47,028 nucleotides of DNA from Calditrichota bacterium (GTDB lineage Bacteria; Electryoneota; AABM5-125-24; Hatepunaeales; Hatepunaeaceae): contig VGIQ01000008.1 in the NCBI GenBank assembly GCA_016867835.1, positions 1 to 47,028 of the forward strand, written 5' to 3'. This document shows positions 11,870 through 20,440 of the stretch, one piece after another. The number at the start of each line of letters is the position of its first letter. Positions within the stretch are counted from its first letter, which is position 1. A program made the translations under genes and the position numbers. Below the pieces are notes generated by a model, which saw nothing but the letters and a program-made list of their open reading frames with translations, searched no databases and was not told the DNA's origin.

Positions 11870-12310
11870 ATGGCAACGAACTTTCAGATCGACAACAACG
11901 GCATCGGCGGGACGCCGTTTCTGACCTTTCGGGTCGATACCTCCGCCAACAAGGACTTCACCCAGTCGGACCTCGACAACAACCTGACGGCATGCGTCGT
12001 TTCGGACTCGAATGAGGTCGGAATGGGCGCTGCCGGCGACAAACTCTTCGGCAAGGTCGTCTGGGTCTCGCAGGAACTCGGGGCCGGCACCACGGTCCCG
12101 GCGCTTTGCGCAGTGCAGGCGCGCGGCGTGGCGCGCTTCAAGTATGCCGCGACGACGCCGGTGATCAACCAGATGGTCGAGTGCGATGGCGCGGGCAAAG
12201 TGCGGCAAGCCTCCGCCGACGCCGACATCGCCGCCGGAGGCCACTTGATGCGCGGACAGGTGATCGCCGTCGATTCCGGCGCCGGCACTTGCGACGTCTG
12301 GCTCGGATAG
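11870..12310 (+). CDS. Capsid decoration/cement-like protein
   Basis: A 146-residue protein rich in small residues and beta-forming stretches ('GKVVWVSQELGAGTTVPALCAVQARGVARF'). The segment 'MVECDGAGKVRQAS' resembles the DUF2190-type capsid cement proteins of tailed phages. It is directly upstream of the major capsid protein, the usual place for such genes. The ATG follows AGAGG at 6 nt. The assignment rests on composition, a weak family resemblance and position; it could also be a head-fibre protein. Confidence 0.55.
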   Translation: MATNFQIDNNGIGGTPFLTFRVDTSANKDFTQSDLDNNLTACVVSDSNEVGMGAAGDKLFGKVVWVSQELGAGTTVPALCAVQARGVARFKYAATTPVINQMVECDGAGKVRQASADADIAAGGHLMRGQVIAVDSGAGTCDVWLG

Positions 12311-12311
12311 T

Positions 12312-12403
12312 ATCAAGTGCCAAGTAACAAGTGTCAAGAAGTCATAGTTATGAAGCACTGAGTGCCGTCTTGATACTTGATACTTGATACTTGATACTCA
12401 AGT
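12312..12403. repeat. Opposed heptamer arrays NNCAAGT and CTTGATA
   Basis: Four NNCAAGN units (12312-12339) are followed, after about 30 bp, by four perfect CTTGATA units and one CTCAAGT (12369-12403). CTTGATA is the reverse complement of TATCAAG, so the two arrays can pair into an imperfect hairpin in the capsid-gene leader. Confidence 0.85.
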
Positions 12404-12436
12404 TCCAACCCTCAATCACCTAAGGAATTTCACACT

Positions 12437-13498
12437 ATGCAAATCAATCTCGAGAATGCCCGGAAACTAAAGGAGGTCGTGGTAGCGCACTCGCGAGCCG
12501 GCAACCTTGCGCTCTACGCCGAGGCGCAGGAACAGGGACTCTCCTTCAGCGAACTCCTCGAACAGATCGACCCGTCCGAACCGGGATCGCCGCTGGATGC
12601 CTTCGAACGGCAGTTGATGCTGCACGGCATTAGCGCCGAAGGGTCGCGCTCCATAGTCCTCGAGCAGTTCTTCGTCGGGGGCGGGCTGGTTCTCCTGCCG
12701 GAATATATCCTGCGCGAGATCGAGCGGGGCTACCGCAAGGTGCAGAACCCGGTCGAACTGATTGCGGCGTCGGTGCCGGAGAAGGGGCCCAAGGTGCATC
12801 CGATCTACATCCAGACCGGAGTCGCACGGGAATCGCTGGCACATCGTGCCGAAGAGGGTGCCGCCTATCCCCGGGTTCAATTGCTCCACCGCGACAAGGA
12901 AGCCCATATCGTCGATCGCGGTCGGCAATTCGACTTCTCCTACCGCGTTGTGCGCAATCAGAACCTAGCCGAGTTCCGGGTCTTCCTCTGGTGGATCGGC
13001 GCGCAAATGGCCTACGACGAGATAGACGAAATCTACAGCCTGCTCGCCGGAGGCGATAACGTCTCGGCCGGCGCCAGCGACGTCTTCAACGGCAATGCCG
13101 GAACCTTCGCCTATTCCGACCTCGTCCACCTTGCGATGGCTTTCGACGTCCCCGCCCGGATGACCCATATCCTCGCCGCCAAGTCGGACATCGAGACCAT
13201 CGTCAACCTCGACCAGTTCCAGGACCCGCTCGTCTGGCAGGGCAGCGAACTGCTGCAAAAGACCGGCGACTTCCGCTCGATCTACCCGGTCAACGCGCGG
13301 CTCGTCGTTGCGCCGAACGCGACGGCGACCGAGATCATCGCTCTCGACGCCCGGTTTGCGGTGCGTGAATCGGTCGCCCAGCCGCTGATGATCGAAGCCG
13401 AGAAGGTGATCAACCAGAAACTCGAGTCGGCGGTCGTCTCAAAGGAATCGGTCTATACCATCATGGTCGATGGCGCTGCGCTGATGTCGAACTACTAA
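12437..13498 (+). CDS. Phage major capsid protein (HK97-fold type)
   Basis: A 353-residue protein. The N-terminal helix-rich part (1-60) is followed by a flexible joint and an extended body with 'ILREIERGYRKVQNPVELIAASVP' and 'DKEAHIVDRGRQFDFSYRVV'. The 'ALDARFAVRESVAQP' and 'EAEKVINQKLESAVVSKESVYTIM' end is typical of major capsid proteins that bind or encircle DNA in tailed phages. It is the best-supported capsid component of the block together with portal and terminase. There is no separate long scaffold gene. The start has an AAGGAA ribosome site. Family assignment is by pattern and neighbourhood. Confidence 0.75.
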   Translation: MQINLENARKLKEVVVAHSRAGNLALYAEAQEQGLSFSELLEQIDPSEPGSPLDAFERQLMLHGISAEGSRSIVLEQFFVGGGLVLLPEYILREIERGYRKVQNPVELIAASVPEKGPKVHPIYIQTGVARESLAHRAEEGAAYPRVQLLHRDKEAHIVDRGRQFDFSYRVVRNQNLAEFRVFLWWIGAQMAYDEIDEIYSLLAGGDNVSAGASDVFNGNAGTFAYSDLVHLAMAFDVPARMTHILAAKSDIETIVNLDQFQDPLVWQGSELLQKTGDFRSIYPVNARLVVAPNATATEIIALDARFAVRESVAQPLMIEAEKVINQKLESAVVSKESVYTIMVDGAALMSNY

Positions 13499-13585
13499 AG
13501 TCGCGGCGCAAAGCCATGGAATATCTCCGGAGTCCGGGGCTATACGGGTCAAACCAACCTCCGGGCCCTGATGCCCCGGCTCTGG

Positions 13586-13613
13586 AAGGATAAAGGATGA
13601 AGGATGAAGGGAG
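13586..13613. repeat. Heptamer repeat AAGGATR x4
   Basis: AAGGATA, AAGGATG, AAGGATG, AAGGGAG in tandem, 90 bp after the capsid stop. On the minus strand this C/T-rich stretch follows the terminator of the predicted small RNA. Confidence 0.8.
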
Positions 13614-13725
13614 GGAGAAAAGAGAACGGGGCAACCTAAGCCGCCCCGTTCACTTGCCGTTGTCACGCATAAAGCGGTCAACGTAGGCTCGATTCCTTAG
13701 GCCGTGCCTAAGTGCAGCCTGATAC
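13612..13725 (-). ncRNA. Predicted small RNA with 5' complementarity to the tRNA-like gene
   Basis: On the minus strand TTGACA (13760-13755), a 17-nt spacer and TAACTT (13737-13732) predict a start near 13725. The predicted RNA of about 105-110 nt opens with 5'-GUAUCAGGCUGCACUUAGG, complementary to CCUAAGCAGCCUGAUAC of the neighbouring tRNA-like RNA with a 2-nt bulge. It then folds into a perfect 7-bp hairpin (CUUAGGC-ACG-GCCUAAG, 13712-13696). Next is a CGUUG/CAACG hairpin with an inner CGC-UUUAU-GCG. It ends in a 9-bp terminator hairpin (13651-13624) followed by UCUUUUCU. No open reading frame of note. All of this is inference from sequence; no transcript evidence exists here. Confidence 0.45.
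13624..13651 (-). terminator. Intrinsic terminator of the small RNA
   Basis: A perfect 9-bp stem GAACGGGGC/GCCCCGTTC with a 10-nt loop. On the minus strand it is followed by TCTTTTCT, a fair U-tract. On the plus strand no U-run follows, though it could still slow read-through from the capsid gene. Confidence 0.7.
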
Positions 13726-13731
13726 GCTTAC

Positions 13732-13760
13732 AAGTTAACAATGTCTCGAGGCGTTGTCAA
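13732..13760 (-). promoter_or_regulatory. Promoter of the predicted small RNA
   Basis: Perfect -35 TTGACA and a partial -10 TAACTT at 17-nt spacing. The predicted +1 (G at 13725) is the first base of the segment complementary to the tRNA-like RNA. Confidence 0.45.
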
Positions 13761-13785
13761 GCCTTTTGCAAGTTCTACAGGATTC

Positions 13786-13870
13786 AGCGGAGGGTGGGGG
13801 AATCGAACCCCGCCCCGTTAAGGGCAGCAGTGTATCAGGCTGCTTAGGTCACCAGGCCTTCAACCTCCGC
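13786..13870 (-). tRNA. Unusual class II tRNA-like gene, identity unresolved
   Basis: The 85-nt minus-strand RNA has a perfect 7-bp acceptor stem GCGGAGG/CCUCCGC and a canonical T-loop UUCGAUU on a 4-bp G/C stem. It has a long variable arm (GCCC-UUAACG-GGGC), a short AGG/CCU D-stem with GG in the loop, and a 5-bp anticodon stem AGCAG/CUGCU. The anticodon loop is 9 nt (CCUGAUACA). If a C-A pair closes it to 7 nt it reads C-U-GAU-A-C, an Ile-type anticodon, yet the long arm is of Ser/Leu/Tyr type. In an alternative register (GGAGGUU/ACCCUCC, one mismatch) the discriminator is G, as in tRNA-Ser. CCA is not encoded. The linker after the acceptor stem is longer than normal. It is either a decayed tRNA or a specialised tRNA-like RNA. 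A promoter fits upstream. Confidence 0.5.
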
Positions 13871-13876
13871 GACCAT

Positions 13877-13905
13877 AATGTATGCTGATCGTGGCTTCCA
13901 TTCAA
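13877..13905 (-). promoter_or_regulatory. Possible promoter of the tRNA-like gene
   Basis: Minus-strand TTGAAT (13905-13900), a 17-nt spacer and TACATT (13882-13877). The predicted start, 7 nt on, is 13870, the first base of the acceptor stem. The -10 box is weak. Confidence 0.35.
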
Positions 13906-13939
13906 GGATTTAGCGAATCTCGAAACCGATAGGGCAACG

Positions 13940-14308
13940 ATGTCACTCAACCATACCCTGAACTATCTGCTGGCGAAGCGAGCCGAGGTGTTGATCCACT
14001 TCTCGGCCCTCGTTACGACGGCTTCGACGACCTTGAAATGCGCGGGCGGTGAGACCGGCGACGGCCTGCCGCTGCCGCGAGCCGGGTTCATCATCGGGCT
14101 TGACGTCTGGGACGGGGCTAATCACCGCTCGGATGCCGGCGCCGTAGGTTTCGCCGCCGGCGACCGGTTGACACTCTACGCCGAGCATGGCGGCACGACG
14201 TACACCGTCAAAGCCCGGTTGAACGGCGTCGATACGACGATCGCCGCTGCTAACGTCGCCGAGAATGCGACGCTCACCGCGACGGCAACGGTGATGCTGA
14301 TCCAGTAG
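13940..14308 (+). CDS. Hypothetical phage structural protein
   Basis: A 122-residue protein. The N-terminal helix (1-20, 'LNHTLNYLLAKRAEVLIHF') is followed by a beta-rich, small-residue domain. That domain contains 'FIIGLDVWDGANHRSDAGAVGFAAGDRLTLYAE' and a Thr/Ala-rich end. I recognise no family. The segment 'GFAAGDRLTLYAEHGGTTYTV' has the look of a small beta-barrel, as in decoration, head-fibre or tail proteins. It starts 30 bp before the next gene and is probably co-transcribed with it. Confidence 0.6.
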   Translation: MSLNHTLNYLLAKRAEVLIHFSALVTTASTTLKCAGGETGDGLPLPRAGFIIGLDVWDGANHRSDAGAVGFAAGDRLTLYAEHGGTTYTVKARLNGVDTTIAAANVAENATLTATATVMLIQ

Positions 14309-14341
14309 TCATTAACCATACACGAACAGTAGGGAATCCCT

Positions 14342-15193
14342 ATGTCCTGGACCGATTCAACCCTGGTCCTTAACCACCTGCTCAACCTTGACCAGCCGCC
14401 TGCGCAGCATCACGACGTGCCGATCTTAATCGGATCGAACGGCATTGGCATCCTGCCGCATCGCGGCCTGGTGCCGCAGAGCGAGGTCGTCAAGCGGCCC
14501 CTTCCGCCGTCCGAGATAGTCCATCAGCAGGTCATCCTGAACGGCGAGAACTGGGCGTCGCTGGCGCATTTGCAGATCCTCCCGGGCGAAATCGTCGTCG
14601 CGGCGGATGCGGTCCTGCAGCAGATCTATTCGGCGGAGAACGACTTTGCCGTCGATTGGGAAGGCGGGCGCATCCGGCGCATCGAGGATAGCGCGATCCC
14701 GGACGCGTCGAGCGTCGAAATCTGGTATCGCAGTTACGAGGAACTGGAGCGCGACGTCGATTACGACATCAACTACGCGACTGGCGAGGTCTTCAACGTG
14801 ACCGGCAACCGCGACCTGTCGGATACGTTGCTCTTTGTGGACTATCAACTACCGGCGGCAGCCGGCGTTCAAGCCCTTATTCCGCAAGCCATCACCGAGG
14901 TTGAAGCGAAGATACTGCCCCGACTGAAGCCGCCTTATGGGGCGGCATCGACCGACCAGGGACTGATCACCTCGGCGACCGAAATGACCCTCTCGGCGGT
15001 ATGTAGGGGACTAGCAGCGCGAGCCTTGCTCGACGGCGCAACCTCGCCCGAAGGACGGGCGCGCAGTTGGATGCAACTTGCCAACTCCTACGAAACAACC
15101 GCCTGGCAAACGCTTCGCCCGTTCCTGACGCATCCCGTCCAGACGCCGGCCGGCAAATCCGGCAACAGCAGTTGGGAATGGAGCGAACGTTAG
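14342..15193 (+). CDS. Phage head-tail connector-like protein
   Basis: A 283-residue protein. The N-terminal half is beta-rich and contains 'ENDFAVDWEGGRIRRI' and 'VDYDINYATGEVFNV', patterns common in phage baseplate or neck proteins that describe repeated beta strands. The C-terminal 110 residues are helical ('AVCRGLAARALLDG', 'RARSWMQLANSYETTAWQTLRPFL'), similar in general appearance to gp6-type head-tail adaptors. The mixed make-up suggests either a fusion or an uncharacterised neck protein. Function is inferred mainly from its place between the capsid and terminase genes. Confidence 0.5.
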   Translation: MSWTDSTLVLNHLLNLDQPPAQHHDVPILIGSNGIGILPHRGLVPQSEVVKRPLPPSEIVHQQVILNGENWASLAHLQILPGEIVVAADAVLQQIYSAENDFAVDWEGGRIRRIEDSAIPDASSVEIWYRSYEELERDVDYDINYATGEVFNVTGNRDLSDTLLFVDYQLPAAAGVQALIPQAITEVEAKILPRLKPPYGAASTDQGLITSATEMTLSAVCRGLAARALLDGATSPEGRARSWMQLANSYETTAWQTLRPFLTHPVQTPAGKSGNSSWEWSER

Positions 15194-15262
15194 ACGAGGA
15201 ACGGGTAATGAAGTGTGCAGTCTAATCGCTCCCGTGTCCCACCGCTTGGCGGGGGGACTACA

Positions 15263-15308
15263 GGGGGGCAAAAAGCAAAACAAAATTGCCCCCCCGCAAA
15301 GCAGGGGG
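15263..15308. repeat. G/C-run hairpins
   Basis: GGGGGGCAA (15263-15271) pairs with TTGCCCCCC (15286-15294). Then CCCCCC-GCAAAGCA-GGGGGG overlaps it (15290-15308). The two folds are mutually exclusive. A similar C/G-run hairpin lies within 22195-22305. Confidence 0.6.
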
Positions 15309-15359
15309 GAGAATACTGGGTGAACTGCACCAAGCGATGAACTGGTCGTTCTGCCTAAC

Positions 15360-15387
15360 AAAATCCAAAATCCAATATCCAAAATCC
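15360..15387. repeat. Heptamer repeat AAAATCC x4 abutting the terminase start
   Basis: AAAATCC, AAAATCC, AATATCC, AAAATCC, then a degenerate GAAATTG whose TTG is the likely terminase start (15392). A related array stands directly before the gene at 19101. Confidence 0.9.
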
Positions 15388-15391
15388 GAAA

Positions 15392-16699
15392 TTGTGGGAC
15401 TGGATACATACGAACATCCGAACGCTCGATGCCAGAGGTGGAATAAAGCCCTTTCCGGACTACGAATTTGCGCGCCGGATGGTCGAATGCGCATCAGCGA
15501 ACCGGCTTCTCCTGATCGCCAAATCGCGCCAAATGCTGGCCACCTGGTCTATTGCAGCGGTGCATCTCTATCGGGCACTCTACGAACCTTCGGGGCTTTA
15601 CCTCTTCCTCTCGAAGGGTGAGCGCGACTCCCGGGAGTTGGTCAAACGGCTCAAGGTGATGATCCGCGAACTGCCGGAAGGTCTGGGAGAAGGTATCAAG
15701 GTGAAGGAGGGTGAGACGACCTTTCCCAATGGGAGCCGTATCATTGCCCTGCCGGCGACCGAATCGGCCGTCCGGATGCACAGCCCCGCCGGCGTCTTCT
15801 GGGATGAGATGGCTTTCACACCGCGGTCGGAAGGCATCTGGACGGCGGTCAAGCCGGCGGTTGACTCCGGGGGGACGTTCATCGGCGTCTCAACCCCCAA
15901 CGGCACCGACAACGTCTTCTACCGCCTCTGGAGCGATGCTCACGACGCCTGCGCGAAGTTCCGGCTGCACTGGATGGAGCATCCGCTTCGCGACGAAGAA
16001 TGGGAGCGCAGTGCCCGGCGCGGTCTTTCCGAAGAACGCTGGCGGCAGGAACAGGAGATCGACTTCAGTATCCTGGCGGACCGGGTCTATGGCGAGTTCG
16101 ATCCGGAACTGCACATTCTGCAGGAGACTTACTTCTGGCGGAGGGGGCGCGGGCGGACCTTTCGCAGCATCGACTTCGGCTACCGCAATCCCTATGTGAT
16201 CTGGGCGGAAGCACTGCCCGACGGCAGTCTGGTGGTTTTCGACGAATGGGAGGGGAGCGACGCGACGGTCGATTCTATGGGGCTGGCGATACGGGCGGTC
16301 GATTCCCGCAACGGACTGGCCGAGAGCGATGTCATCTGGACGGCTTGCGATCCAGCCGGCGAGCAGCGCACCGACAAGGGCCTTTCGTCGGTTGAACGGC
16401 TGAGGCGGGAAGGCTTTCATATCGTCCACCGGCCGTCGGAAATCCTGACCGGCGTCGATCTCGTAAAATCGCTGCTAAGGGATGCAAACGGCGCGGTGCG
16501 GTTCCGCTTTGCGCCGCAATGCGTCCGGACGATTGAGCATATCCGGCATTACCGGTGGGACCCGGCGGGTGGCCGCAAACCCTACAAGGACGATGTCCAC
16601 GACCACGCCATGGACGCGCTGCGCTACCTCGTCGTCAGTTTGCTGGACGGCAGCAGGCCGGCCTGGTCCGGGGCGCGGGTAGCCGGGGTGGGAAGGTGA
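15392..16699 (+). CDS. terL: Phage terminase large subunit
   Basis: A 435-residue DNA-packaging motor protein with ATPase and nuclease domains. The Walker-A-like 'AKSRQMLATW' is at residues 43-52, Walker B 'GVFWDEMAF' around 134-142 and the coupling motif 'STPNG' at 167-171. The nuclease acidic residues are D261 in 'RSIDFGYRNPY', D320 in 'TACDPAGEQR' and D404/D408 in 'VHDHAMDALRY'. All key motifs are present, so the enzyme looks intact. No small terminase subunit is recognisable nearby. The start is uncertain: a TTG at 15392 directly follows the heptamer repeat, and no strong ribosome site is visible. It lies after the capsid gene and before the portal, an unusual order. Confidence 0.88.
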   Translation: MWDWIHTNIRTLDARGGIKPFPDYEFARRMVECASANRLLLIAKSRQMLATWSIAAVHLYRALYEPSGLYLFLSKGERDSRELVKRLKVMIRELPEGLGEGIKVKEGETTFPNGSRIIALPATESAVRMHSPAGVFWDEMAFTPRSEGIWTAVKPAVDSGGTFIGVSTPNGTDNVFYRLWSDAHDACAKFRLHWMEHPLRDEEWERSARRGLSEERWRQEQEIDFSILADRVYGEFDPELHILQETYFWRRGRGRTFRSIDFGYRNPYVIWAEALPDGSLVVFDEWEGSDATVDSMGLAIRAVDSRNGLAESDVIWTACDPAGEQRTDKGLSSVERLRREGFHIVHRPSEILTGVDLVKSLLRDANGAVRFRFAPQCVRTIEHIRHYRWDPAGGRKPYKDDVHDHAMDALRYLVVSLLDGSRPAWSGARVAGVGR

Positions 16700-16802
16700 T
16701 GCGCAACGCCAAAACCCCTATTTTTTCGGCTTCAATGAAGGAGGAGTAACCTGCGGGCGAGGCTTGGATGGAGGTGGATTCACCCCCCCTGTCTTTTCCA
16801 TG

Positions 16803-16815
16803 CCCCTTAAAGGGG
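16803..16815. terminator. Small hairpin between convergent genes
   Basis: CCCC-TTAAA-GGGG after terL and before the convergent membrane-protein gene. The stem is short and the call weak. Confidence 0.3.
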
Positions 16816-16850
16816 TTCGCGCGGGTGTTGAATCGGATGATGCCTTGCTT

Positions 16851-17519
16851 TCAGACATTTAGTTGATTCTCCTGACTTTCGGATGATGAGACACCGCCCT
16901 TGAGCGGGATTTCCAAGGTGATTTGACCCAACTCGCGTTGAAGATAAACGAAGGAGGTGTCGTAAAGATGCATTCCCTCCTGCGCTGTATATACTGCGAC
17001 GTCTTGCAAAAGAAGTTCCCGCGTCTGACGTGATTCAGAATACTTGGCGACATAGCCATAGTATAGCAGATCGGCAGTGTGATCCCGGACAAATAACCAA
17101 CCGCTGTTGACTTTGGAATCCGGGGAGCTTAGGAATTGCTCCCAAACATCCTCTTCGCCATATCGGCGGGTTGCACCGATGAGTATCCCTAGGCGGTTTG
17201 CCCAAGCGAACTTCCAGGCATAGGAGAGGATGTATGTCAGTGCCACCCCGGCAAGCGTCCCATAGCCGAGCAGTTTGGTGTCAACCCTTGCCTGGCGATC
17301 CAAGAAGAGGGCGATGGGATCCAGGGACTTCATGCCGGGAATCAACAAACTGGCAATGCCTACAAGAAGATACGAGAGAAATGCATAGAGGAATATTCGC
17401 AGGACGACTTCCAAGCCAGACTGTCCTGCCGATGCGATCAACTGCCGGCTGATGAAATAGCAGACCAACCCCGGCGTCACAATCACCAGCAGCCGAAGGG
17501 TCAGTTCGTCGATGTTCAA
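16851..17519 (-). CDS. Membrane protein inserted in the phage block (DUF6338-like)
   Basis: A 222-residue protein on the strand opposite to its phage neighbours. It has three likely transmembrane helices (about 8-27, 37-60, 82-104) and a cytoplasmic domain of about 115 residues. That domain contains 'SGWLFVRDHTADLLYYGYVAKYSESRQTRELLL' and 'VYLQRELGQITLEIPLKG'. The layout resembles DUF6338 proteins, but I am not certain. Its orientation and lack of any virion-type feature make it look like a cargo (moron) gene, perhaps acting in the host cell membrane. A defence or exclusion role is possible but only inferred. Confidence 0.6.
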   Translation of the reverse strand: MNIDELTLRLLVIVTPGLVCYFISRQLIASAGQSGLEVVLRIFLYAFLSYLLVGIASLLIPGMKSLDPIALFLDRQARVDTKLLGYGTLAGVALTYILSYAWKFAWANRLGILIGATRRYGEEDVWEQFLSSPDSKVNSGWLFVRDHTADLLYYGYVAKYSESRQTRELLLQDVAVYTAQEGMHLYDTSFVYLQRELGQITLEIPLKGGVSSSESQENQLNV

Positions 17520-17608
17520 GTTTATTCACGGGTTAGTAACAACGTGAACCAGTTACTATTACAAAGATAATCGACCAGTTTGCACAACGCAAATAAGGGA
17601 CATCTGCA

Positions 17609-18988
17609 ATGAACCTATTCAAACGACGCAGGAATCTTGACGCGCGGACGCTCGACGGCCTGGTGCAGGTGCGCGGCAGGAAACGGTTGCTCGATGCCAT
17701 GGCTGTCATCACTCCAACCCCGCGCCCCTCCCCGGAACGGCATCTGAGACGGGTTTGGGAGCCGCGCGGTCTCGAGCGGGTGATGCGGGGATCGGGCCGC
17801 TTAGAGACCGCCGGGGGTGGACTTTCATACGGCGGCAGCCGGGTGGCTTTGCACCGCTACCTGCGCGATTCGATTCCGATCATTTCGGCGGGCGTCTGGG
17901 CTTGGACGCGGCTCACCGCCACACGGCTGAACCGGACTCTGGAAGGCCCGGCCGATCAGCGCCGTGCGGCGGAGAAATTGCTTGAAGCCCTCGACGACCG
18001 CCTTCTCGAAGCCCCCTATGGCCGTGGATCGGGATTCGTCAAACTGGCCGAAGGCTACTTTCTCGAACTGTTCACTACCGGCCGGTGCGCCCTCGAGGCC
18101 GTCCTCAAGGATGATGGAAAGGGCATCGACCACGTCCGCTTCGTCGATCCCGAGTCGATAGGCTGGGAAGCGACTCCGGACGGCTGGCGCGCCTTTGTCT
18201 TGCGCCCGGCAGGCGACGGCGTGACGGCGGCGCAGCGTCGCCGCAAAGTGCCATCGGGCATCGATGAGAATACCGAAAAGGTCTATTTCGATCCGTGCTA
18301 CTTCTTCTACGGAACGCTGGGGATCGACTTTGCCAACCCTCTCGGCTCGGAACCGCTGGCTTGCATCCCGTTTGTCAGCGAGATCGAGCAACTGATGCTC
18401 GAGGATATGGCGCGGTCATCGCATAATGCCGGGACCCCGCGGCTGCAAATCAAGATCGGCCGGCCCGAGCGGTTCAGTTGGGAGGGCGACTACGAATACA
18501 CCGAACGTGCCAACCGGTTCTTCAACGAAGTGGTGGCGCAGTTCGGCAACCTCGAGCCAGACGACAACCTCTTCACCTGGAGCGATGTCGAAGTTACACT
18601 GGTCGGCGGATCGGGCAAGTCGTGGGAATGGCGGCTCAACCGCGAGCAGGTGATCGAAGATGTCATCACCGGGCTGAAACTCTTTCCCTGGGTGTTGGGC
18701 CGGACGCACCGTTCGACGCAGAACTGGGTCCAGTCGCAATACGATCTGCTGATGCAGGTGGTGCAGTCGCATCAACTGACCGGCGCGGGAGTTGCCGACT
18801 GGGTCGCCAATCTCGAACTGCAACTGAACGGCACGGGCTGCGTCGCGCGGAATGAGTTCGACCGCCATCCCGATCCGTTCCGGTTGGAACGTGCCCAAGC
18901 CGAACGCGCCGAATTCGACTGCATCGACCGAATGGTCGAGCGGGGCTACATCTCGCAGGAGGAAGGCAAGCGGAAGTTAGGGCTTTGA
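17609..18988 (+). CDS. Phage portal protein
   Basis: A 459-residue protein. Features fit tailed-phage portals, which form the dodecameric ring at one capsid vertex through which terminase drives DNA. There is a beta/alpha wing region (about 80-220), 'RFVDPESIGWEATPDGWRAFVL' and 'EKVYFDPCYFFYGTLGID'. A long helical stem and crown with 'NREQVIEDVITGLKLFPWVLGRTHRSTQNWVQSQYDLLMQVV' follow. The C-terminal 'ERGYISQEEGKRKLGL' is typical of portal ends. The ATG follows AGGGAC. It is separated from terminase by the inverted membrane-protein gene, although the two normally adjoin. Confidence 0.8.
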   Translation: MNLFKRRRNLDARTLDGLVQVRGRKRLLDAMAVITPTPRPSPERHLRRVWEPRGLERVMRGSGRLETAGGGLSYGGSRVALHRYLRDSIPIISAGVWAWTRLTATRLNRTLEGPADQRRAAEKLLEALDDRLLEAPYGRGSGFVKLAEGYFLELFTTGRCALEAVLKDDGKGIDHVRFVDPESIGWEATPDGWRAFVLRPAGDGVTAAQRRRKVPSGIDENTEKVYFDPCYFFYGTLGIDFANPLGSEPLACIPFVSEIEQLMLEDMARSSHNAGTPRLQIKIGRPERFSWEGDYEYTERANRFFNEVVAQFGNLEPDDNLFTWSDVEVTLVGGSGKSWEWRLNREQVIEDVITGLKLFPWVLGRTHRSTQNWVQSQYDLLMQVVQSHQLTGAGVADWVANLELQLNGTGCVARNEFDRHPDPFRLERAQAERAEFDCIDRMVERGYISQEEGKRKLGL

Positions 18989-19066
18989 TTTCCGTTCCCC
19001 TCGTTTGCAGAGGGCATCGCAGGGCGGAAATCTGAAGTTGAAGCAAGAAGTGTTTGGCGTGAGTGC

Positions 19067-19101
19067 CAAATCCCAAATCCAAAACCCAAATTCCAAATCT
19101 A
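19067..19101. repeat. Heptamer repeat CAAATCC-like x5 abutting a start codon
   Basis: CAAATCC, CAAATCC, AAAACCC, AAATTCC, AAATCTA. The last base is the A of the start codon at 19101. It resembles the AAAATCC array before the terminase; both are followed by TGG-(G)ACTGG. Confidence 0.85.
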
Positions 19102-19775
19102 TGGACTGGCTATATCGGGAATTATCGGGGCTATTGCTGCCCGATCCGTCGAAAGGCGGCGACGACGACATCATTGCAATCAACAATCTACCTAATCCAC
19201 CGCCGGTGCCGGTAACGGCGCGCGACGTTCAGATCCGTCGCTGCCGTCTGGCGGGAGATGCCGTCGATGCCGGATTTGGCCGCTTCCGGACGGCCGACCT
19301 GCCGAGACTTCTACAACTGGTACAAGGCGCTCCGGCGCTGGTCGGGCATCGCAAGGAAGGCCTCGGTGTAGCCCGGTTTTTCGGCGGCAGCCTGGAAAAG
19401 GACGACCGGACCGGCATAACCTATGTCGTGCCGAAGTTCTATTGGATGCGGGCTCATTCCGCCGCCGAAGACCTTCGCGTCAACATCGACGGCGGCATCT
19501 GGTGCGAGGCCTCGCTCGGCTTCTCGTTTCGCCGTCCGACCTGCTCGGTCTGCGGCGAAGATGTCCGCCGGTGCGATCATACGCCGGGGCGCGACTATGA
19601 CGGCAGCGCGGCCTATTTCTACTATGACGACATCCTGAAGGTCTATGAAGGTTCCTTCGTCTTTCGCGGCGCTCAGCCGGGAACCGGCTTCGCGCTCGCG
19701 GCACCGAATGGCCAAATGCCGGTCAAGGTCCATCGCTTCAGATATCGGGGTGAGTGGTATGAAGTGAGCGAGTAA
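19101..19775 (+). CDS. Putative prohead protease-like structural protein
   Basis: A 224-residue protein starting at the ATG right after the heptamer repeat; upstream in-frame sequence would only translate repeat. 'DDRTGITYVVPKFYWMRAHSAAEDLRVNIDGGIWCEASLGFSF' resembles the core of phage prohead proteases, where an 'xxxSLGF/SIGF' strand follows the active region. After it comes a CxxCG...CxH knuckle ('CSVCGEDVRRCDHTPG'), seen in several phage protease-like proteins, and 'VYEGSFVFRGAQPGTGF'. I cannot point to a certain catalytic Ser-His pair. Directly downstream of the portal, this is the usual slot for a protease. A zinc-binding structural protein is the alternative. Confidence 0.5.
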   Translation: MDWLYRELSGLLLPDPSKGGDDDIIAINNLPNPPPVPVTARDVQIRRCRLAGDAVDAGFGRFRTADLPRLLQLVQGAPALVGHRKEGLGVARFFGGSLEKDDRTGITYVVPKFYWMRAHSAAEDLRVNIDGGIWCEASLGFSFRRPTCSVCGEDVRRCDHTPGRDYDGSAAYFYYDDILKVYEGSFVFRGAQPGTGFALAAPNGQMPVKVHRFRYRGEWYEVSE

Positions 19776-19808
19776 GCGGGTGATTGAGAAAGCGGGCGGA
19801 AAATCGTA

Positions 19809-19843
19809 AAGGCTCAAGGCTTAAGGCTAAAGGCTTATGGCTT
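19809..19843. repeat. Heptamer repeat AAGGCTY x5, second copy
   Basis: AAGGCTC, AAGGCTT, AAGGCTA, AAGGCTT, ATGGCTT. It is followed by AATGTCC and an ACAACTAACAAAGG leader, close to that at 11840-11869, and then the ATG at 19877. Confidence 0.9.
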
Positions 19844-19876
19844 AATGTCCAATTCACAACTAACAAAGGTCTATCG

Positions 19877-20440
19877 ATGAGATTCTGCAAGATCATTTGC
19901 GCGCTCGGTGCTGTTCTCTTCGATTTGTCGTTCGCTCAGCCGGGCGTGTCGCCGGTCGGTACAGCCTCCGACTTCCTGTCGAGCGAACACACTCCCGTCA
20001 TCTGGAGCGGCTCGGGCCGGATCAACGGAGCGGGGAATACCTATACGACATCCTGGCTGCAAATCGGTTACAGCCCATCAGTTGCGGCGGTCGATAACAG
20101 CAACATCGCCCGGTTCAACCCGGAGCGATTCACGCTGACTCTGAAGGTGTCGAATTACAATGTCGGGGATTCGGCGGTGGTGGGTTCAGCGCGGTTTGAA
20201 CTGGCTTACGACACTACCGCGGCGGCTGCGTGGAGCGCCGATTCGACGAACCGGTTCATCCAGTCGGGCGGGTTCAACCATCCGCTCTACGGGCAGGGAG
20301 TCTATGAGGCGTTGTTGGATACGGCGCGGCGGTGGGACTATCCGTTGCGCATCCCGCGCGGCGGATTCATTCGCTTTGTCTTCGGGACTACGACGGCGGA
20401 TAGCGTCAACATCGCTTGGACGCTTTGGGGGGAGAATTGA
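19877..20440 (+). CDS. Hypothetical exported protein in the phage block
   Basis: A 187-residue protein. The start at 19877 is preferred because it gives a clean signal peptide ('MRFCKIICALGAVLFDLSFA', cleavage near residue 20); an upstream start would translate the repeat. The mature part is beta-rich and contains 'RFTLTLKVSNYNVGDSAVVGSARFELAYD' and 'LRIPRGGFIRFVFGTTTADSVNIAWTLW'. The latter resembles the end of receptor-binding or virion beta domains. A Sec signal on a virion-type protein is unusual. Its stop overlaps the next start (ATGA), so the two are translationally coupled. Confidence 0.6.
   Translation: MRFCKIICALGAVLFDLSFAQPGVSPVGTASDFLSSEHTPVIWSGSGRINGAGNTYTTSWLQIGYSPSVAAVDNSNIARFNPERFTLTLKVSNYNVGDSAVVGSARFELAYDTTAAAAWSADSTNRFIQSGGFNHPLYGQGVYEALLDTARRWDYPLRIPRGGFIRFVFGTTTADSVNIAWTLWGEN

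Follow-up and report, generated by a model that had tools for sequence, protein, structure and literature searches.

Between two structural genes of a capsid operon in a Calditrichota bacterium, the minus strand carries two predicted RNA genes with mutual complementarity, which raises the question of whether they form an antisense pair or came to resemble each other in some other way. We analyzed the whole 47,028-nt stretch of contig VGIQ01000008.1 (assembly GCA_016867835.1; hereafter the window). The two RNAs, termed RNA A and sRNA B, both run opposite to the operon between the major capsid protein gene (12437-13498, plus strand; phrog_3922, E 3.9e-39) and the next structural gene (122 aa, plus strand, starting at 13940), in agreement with the first-pass annotation, which had located them within a capsid operon. 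The reading we prefer, at a probability of roughly 0.5, is that A and B form a non-coding "moron" in that operon, each RNA gene being transcribed on its own, and that their complementarity is a by-product of local copying.

The capsid operon and its insertion site

Of 39 phylum genomes, 34 have the capsid gene, nearly always as one copy; in the sole exception, G002, it is split across two contig ends. Gene order in the capsid cluster was conserved in the genera compared. Across GTDB genomes, 390 stretches encode capsid relatives; among the matches listed, many are titled Zixibacteria, and the close relatives carry the titles Calditrichaeota, Candidatus Hatepunaea and Candidatus Electryonea. 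This single-copy, syntenic and phylum-wide pattern suggests a vertically inherited, domesticated capsid cassette or candidate gene transfer agent; no paper linking gene transfer agents to Zixibacteria or Calditrichaeota turned up in a literature search. Within the window, the capsid/terminase/portal cluster spans 11870-20440.

Directly 3′ of the capsid gene lies a family-wide hairpin (13525-13588, plus strand), a separate sense-strand element found at the same place in eight family genomes and an IMG/VR contig (L005), with double-sided changes in 11 of its 14 consensus pairs and no Rfam match. The relative G005 has a second, weaker copy of this hairpin at C1:286067-286129.

The A/B insert itself is patchy. 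Six family members examined (G006, G001, G002, G003, G007 and G008) have no insert at the capsid site, G005 is the only relative found with both RNAs, and L005 has B with no A within its 8.4-kb contig; flanking genes were syntenic where compared. This distribution points to repeated loss or to more than one acquisition. In the capsid trees, the window genome groups with G006 and G005 (support 81/85, a provisional placement), and L005 groups with G001 (support 98/98).

A conserved small RNA and its tRNA-like neighbor

sRNA B (13725-13617, minus strand) is predicted to comprise a P1/P2 stem-loop, the conserved GGAATCGA, a P3 hairpin and an intrinsic terminator (13651-13624, minus strand; a 12-bp hairpin with a T-rich tail). 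Its fold (-51.4 kcal/mol, z -4.85) was not equaled by any of 200 shuffles, and a promoter-like TTGACA-17-TAACTT, read directly, precedes it at 13760-13732 on the same strand, bearing out the earlier description of a terminated small RNA with its own promoter. Homologs at the same site and on the same strand occur in G005 (L008:2822-2719) and in the IMG/VR contig (L005:1615-1503). These were first noticed by eye in intergenic sequences; to avoid circularity, a leave-one-out covariance model (R3) was built solely from the G005 and L005 sequences. It matched the window at 13725-13618 (34.8 bits, E 2.5e-6), starting exactly at 13725, the 5′ end that had been proposed, and its next match in 470 kb of related loci had an E value of 0.48.

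The promoters of A and B in the window both fall below the promoter-scan threshold; the G005 counterparts match the consensus at 11 of 12 positions and the one in L005 at 9 of 12, in the same placement relative to the RNA. An alignment of B from the three genomes shows double-sided changes in 7 of 24 consensus pairs, with promoter and terminator positions held in common, and the most conserved stretches are the 5′ end, GUGU/GUAU-[C/G]AG, together with GGARUCGA in mid-RNA. Comparison of the minus strand with 4227 Rfam families, up to E 10, gave no match to B. Judged by these comparisons, sRNA B is a new conserved sRNA with a predicted terminator. Further copies elsewhere in the genomes were considered and rejected: nearly all genomes yielded 20-30-bit matches, which, judged collectively and not one by one, resembled the background of terminator hairpins. 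The genome search gave no B match at capsid loci beyond those already known, a DNA search of phages and plasmids gave no match, and viral contigs scanned with a pattern of the B head yielded the L005 contig only.

RNA A (13869-13788, minus strand) corresponds to the tRNA-like gene reported on this strand by the first-pass annotation. The presence of this tRNA-like sequence was confirmed. Its best Rfam match in a permissive cmscan was tRNA-Sec (RF01852), which it matched over the full length with 38.2 bits (E 3.8e-6) where the cut-off of the model is 47 bits; ARAGORN called no tRNA gene at this position, and RNA A was not among the 43 tRNAs of a whole-genome RF00005 search (E ≤ 0.001). RNA A is thus tRNA-like but sub-threshold, and its identification as a canonical tRNA was rejected, no cloverleaf having exceeded the thresholds of the tRNA models. 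Genuine tRNA-Ser genes reach about 42-46 bits on the tRNA-Sec model and so outscore RNA A, which means that its match indicates class II form and not selenocysteine.

The predicted fold of RNA A (-37.5 kcal/mol, z -1.66) has an 8/4 acceptor/T branch with a U6.C67 mismatch, 12 nt of acceptor plus T strand ahead of G73, an optional extra C0-G73 pair, a D-arm-like region, an anticodon-like loop CUGAUAC (GAU) and a variable-arm-like GCCCUUAACGGGGC; no CCA is encoded. A weak promoter-like TTGAAT-17-TACATT (13905-13877, minus strand; 8/12, read directly) would place its start near 13870. The counterpart in G005 lies upstream of B behind a promoter of its own (11/12 consensus), ends in GCGGGGTTCGATTCCCCCGCCCTCCGCCA, and has an 8-bp acceptor, a 4-bp T stem, G73 and CCA. 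By inspection of the pairing, the two A RNAs have the U6.C67 mismatch in common, pair 7-66 is U-A in the window versus C-G in G005 (one compensatory pair), and the 8/4 reading of the branch leaves one mismatch in the window and two in G005. The interiors differ, with D-, anticodon- and variable-arm-like parts in the window versus a single long hairpin in G005; a long variable arm together with G73, the SerRS identity of allo-tRNAs, is seen in window A, and the variable arm is absent from the G005 counterpart. As a comparison of two sequences, this gives thin evidence for selection on the structure of A.

Complementarity, possible copying and competing explanations

The 5′ end of B, GUAUCAGGCUGCACUUAGG (13725-13707, minus strand), is complementary to CCUAAGCAGCCUGAUAC in A (13848-13832, minus strand), a segment running from the end of the D arm to the anticodon loop. 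As had been described earlier, 17 pairs with a 2-nt bulge begin at the first base of B; with small gaps the complementarity reaches about 27 nt. Chance was rejected here as it had been before, since the inverted alignment scored 16.5 versus a maximum of 12.0 over 2000 dinucleotide shuffles, none of which reached its score. The role as antitoxin, sponge or regulator that the first-pass annotation had raised as a possibility for this pairing was not supported. Conservation of the complementarity in relatives had been set beforehand as its refutation test, and the complementarity is not kept in G005: the two RNAs there are direct paralogs that align over 57 nt (score 31.5 versus a shuffle maximum of 12.5), and their antisense score of 8.0, reached by 451 of 2000 shuffles, amounts to no significant complementarity. 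In the window, the gain from cofolding A and B (-10.0 kcal/mol) was equaled or exceeded by 48 of 200 shuffles. Given paralogs without complementarity in G005 and a cofold gain at shuffle level, the pairing looks like local inverted copying and not like a maintained antitoxin-target pair. Among the options proposed at the outset, an inverted duplication is the best fit as an origin, with direct copies in G005 and inverted copies in the window.

One point against the by-product view comes from L005, where the B head is conserved and still pairs with window A: it shares 14 of 17 bases with the A segment and can form 16 of the 17 possible pairs, in a predicted duplex of -26.7 kcal/mol, and two of its three differences preserve pairing as wobbles. 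This conservation could reflect selection for a target of that sequence. A functional antisense pair, in which the 5′ end of B binds A to block or titrate it as an RNA antitoxin, or in which A sponges B, would account for the retained head and for 17 non-random pairs starting at the first base of B, yet we consider it improbable, as the only relative with both RNAs shows no such complementarity, the L005 contig offers no A to pair with, both segments in the window are buried within intramolecular helices, and the cofold gain is one that shuffles also attain. Window A and L005 B can also be aligned in antisense (score 14, shuffle maximum 11.5), which might point to a tRNA-like character of B's own sense strand; as this alignment depends on many gaps, we gave it no weight.

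Also doubtful is cis-antisense control, by which A and B, perfectly antisense to the intergenic capsid mRNA, would modulate expression or processing at the junction of the capsid gene with its downstream neighbor. Position and orientation are alike in all three B loci, and the terminator of B lies just past the hairpin in the capsid 3′ UTR, so antisense transcription would stop before the capsid gene; set against this, the insert is absent from the corresponding site in most family members, and B has a conserved structure of its own, which pure cis-antisense action does not need.

Under the preferred reading, that of a non-coding moron whose complementarity came from copying, A and B would be two separately transcribed RNA genes inserted against the direction of the inherited capsid operon. 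RNA A would be tRNA-derived, keeping its T arm and 8-bp acceptor around an interior copied from its neighbor B, in direct orientation in G005 and inverted in the window genome; the complementarity would then be a by-product of local copying and, at most, let A serve as sponge or decoy of B in this lineage. We infer that both RNAs are transcribed, that A undergoes tRNA-type processing, that B functions by base pairing, and that copying took this route; with two sequences of A and three of B known, how the copying proceeded, and in which direction, is guesswork. Our best guess from the sequences is an autonomous moron in which B would be a base-pairing sRNA and A a derivative of a tRNA scaffold, possibly sponging B. 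A long shot would go further and have capsid production gated by an RNA-only module, with an sRNA family in a domesticated capsid operon controlled by a neighboring RNA on a tRNA scaffold, the interior of which would be rebuilt time and again by copying the sRNA, direct or inverted, to serve as decoy or antisense sponge.

The family genomes other than those of the window and G005 all have selA, selB and a tRNA-Sec above cut-off; in the window genome and G005, none of the three was found above cut-off. The genomes without these genes are exactly the two family members that carry RNA A. Lacking selA, selB and tRNA-Sec, these genomes would have no use of RNA A as a working selC, and a functional tRNA-Sec was rejected for RNA A, with 38.2 bits where 47 are required, no selA or selB, no UCA anticodon and no 13-bp branch. 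That it might be a selC remnant in lineages that lost selenocysteine is quite improbable: class II form, a UGGU D-loop and the best Rfam match agree with such an origin, as does the coinciding absence of the selenium genes, but the acceptor branch has 12 bp and not 13, host tRNA-Ser genes score higher on the same model, and selC of the relatives is located elsewhere. With two genomes, the coincidence may reflect one shared history. The idea that the B head regulates or binds a host tRNA sharing the arm, which had also been raised, was rejected and we give it very little credence, for although its predicted duplex with tRNA-Ile(GAU) of relatives reaches -20.0 kcal/mol with 8 contiguous pairs over the anticodon, tRNA-Asp of its own genome gives -20.9 kcal/mol and so marks that duplex as background, the best of the host tRNAs examined has 11 of 17 matches, and tRNA-Ile was not found in the assembly.

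Comparison with known RNAs and elements

By sequence and predicted structure, RNA A appears closest to the allo-tRNA(UAU)-like RNAs. Allo-tRNAs vary in anticodon and have branches of the 8/4 or 9/3 type; members of their (UAU) group, with mismatched stem positions and an additional pair at -1, are not functional in translation and have been suggested to be parts of mobile elements or toxin-antitoxin systems (PMC7609411). With these RNAs, RNA A shares a 12-bp branch readable as 8/4, class II form, G73, an extra pair at -1, an Ile-type anticodon loop and stem mismatches. Unlike allo-tRNAs, it sits within a capsid operon and in a different phylum, is partnered with a conserved sRNA to which its interior is related, and has a G005 copy without D arm or canonical anticodon arm. 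The locus would provide allo-tRNA-like RNAs with a second type of genomic setting, in the form of a capsid operon passed on vertically, and sRNA B a linked partner for these poorly understood RNAs, as well as an addition to a possible phylum-wide gene transfer agent of uncultured bacteria.

Phage morons are inserts between structural genes that have their own promoter and terminator and are patchy among relatives; A and B resemble them in all these respects and differ in being non-coding and oriented against the operon. The phage P4 CI RNA and sRNA sponges such as the tRNA 3′ETS give a precedent for a tRNA-derived sponge, and A/B likewise involves a short phage-type RNA complementary to its neighbor, but the pairing is not conserved and each RNA is a terminated unit of its own, unlike a leader attenuator. 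In the bacterial Y RNA (YrlA), a small RNA is associated with a tRNA-like module, a combination also seen here. The conserved GGARUCGA of B suggested a Ro motif, and B as a Y RNA was rejected because none of 39 phylum genomes has a Ro60 (TROVE) partner gene; the lack of an Rfam match is a further difference. The literature searched held no matching layout of a conserved sRNA and a tRNA-like RNA within a capsid operon, as the first-pass annotation had stated.

Short tandem GGATGAA/GGATAAG repeats adjoin the insert (window 13583-13613, L008:2672-2699, L005 ~1186-1215) and also occur scattered through the genomes of relatives. In L005, three approximate copies of a ~30-nt repeat containing GAGTACACGCTTCA are visible by eye at ~1360-1450, in the interval separating B from the capsid gene.
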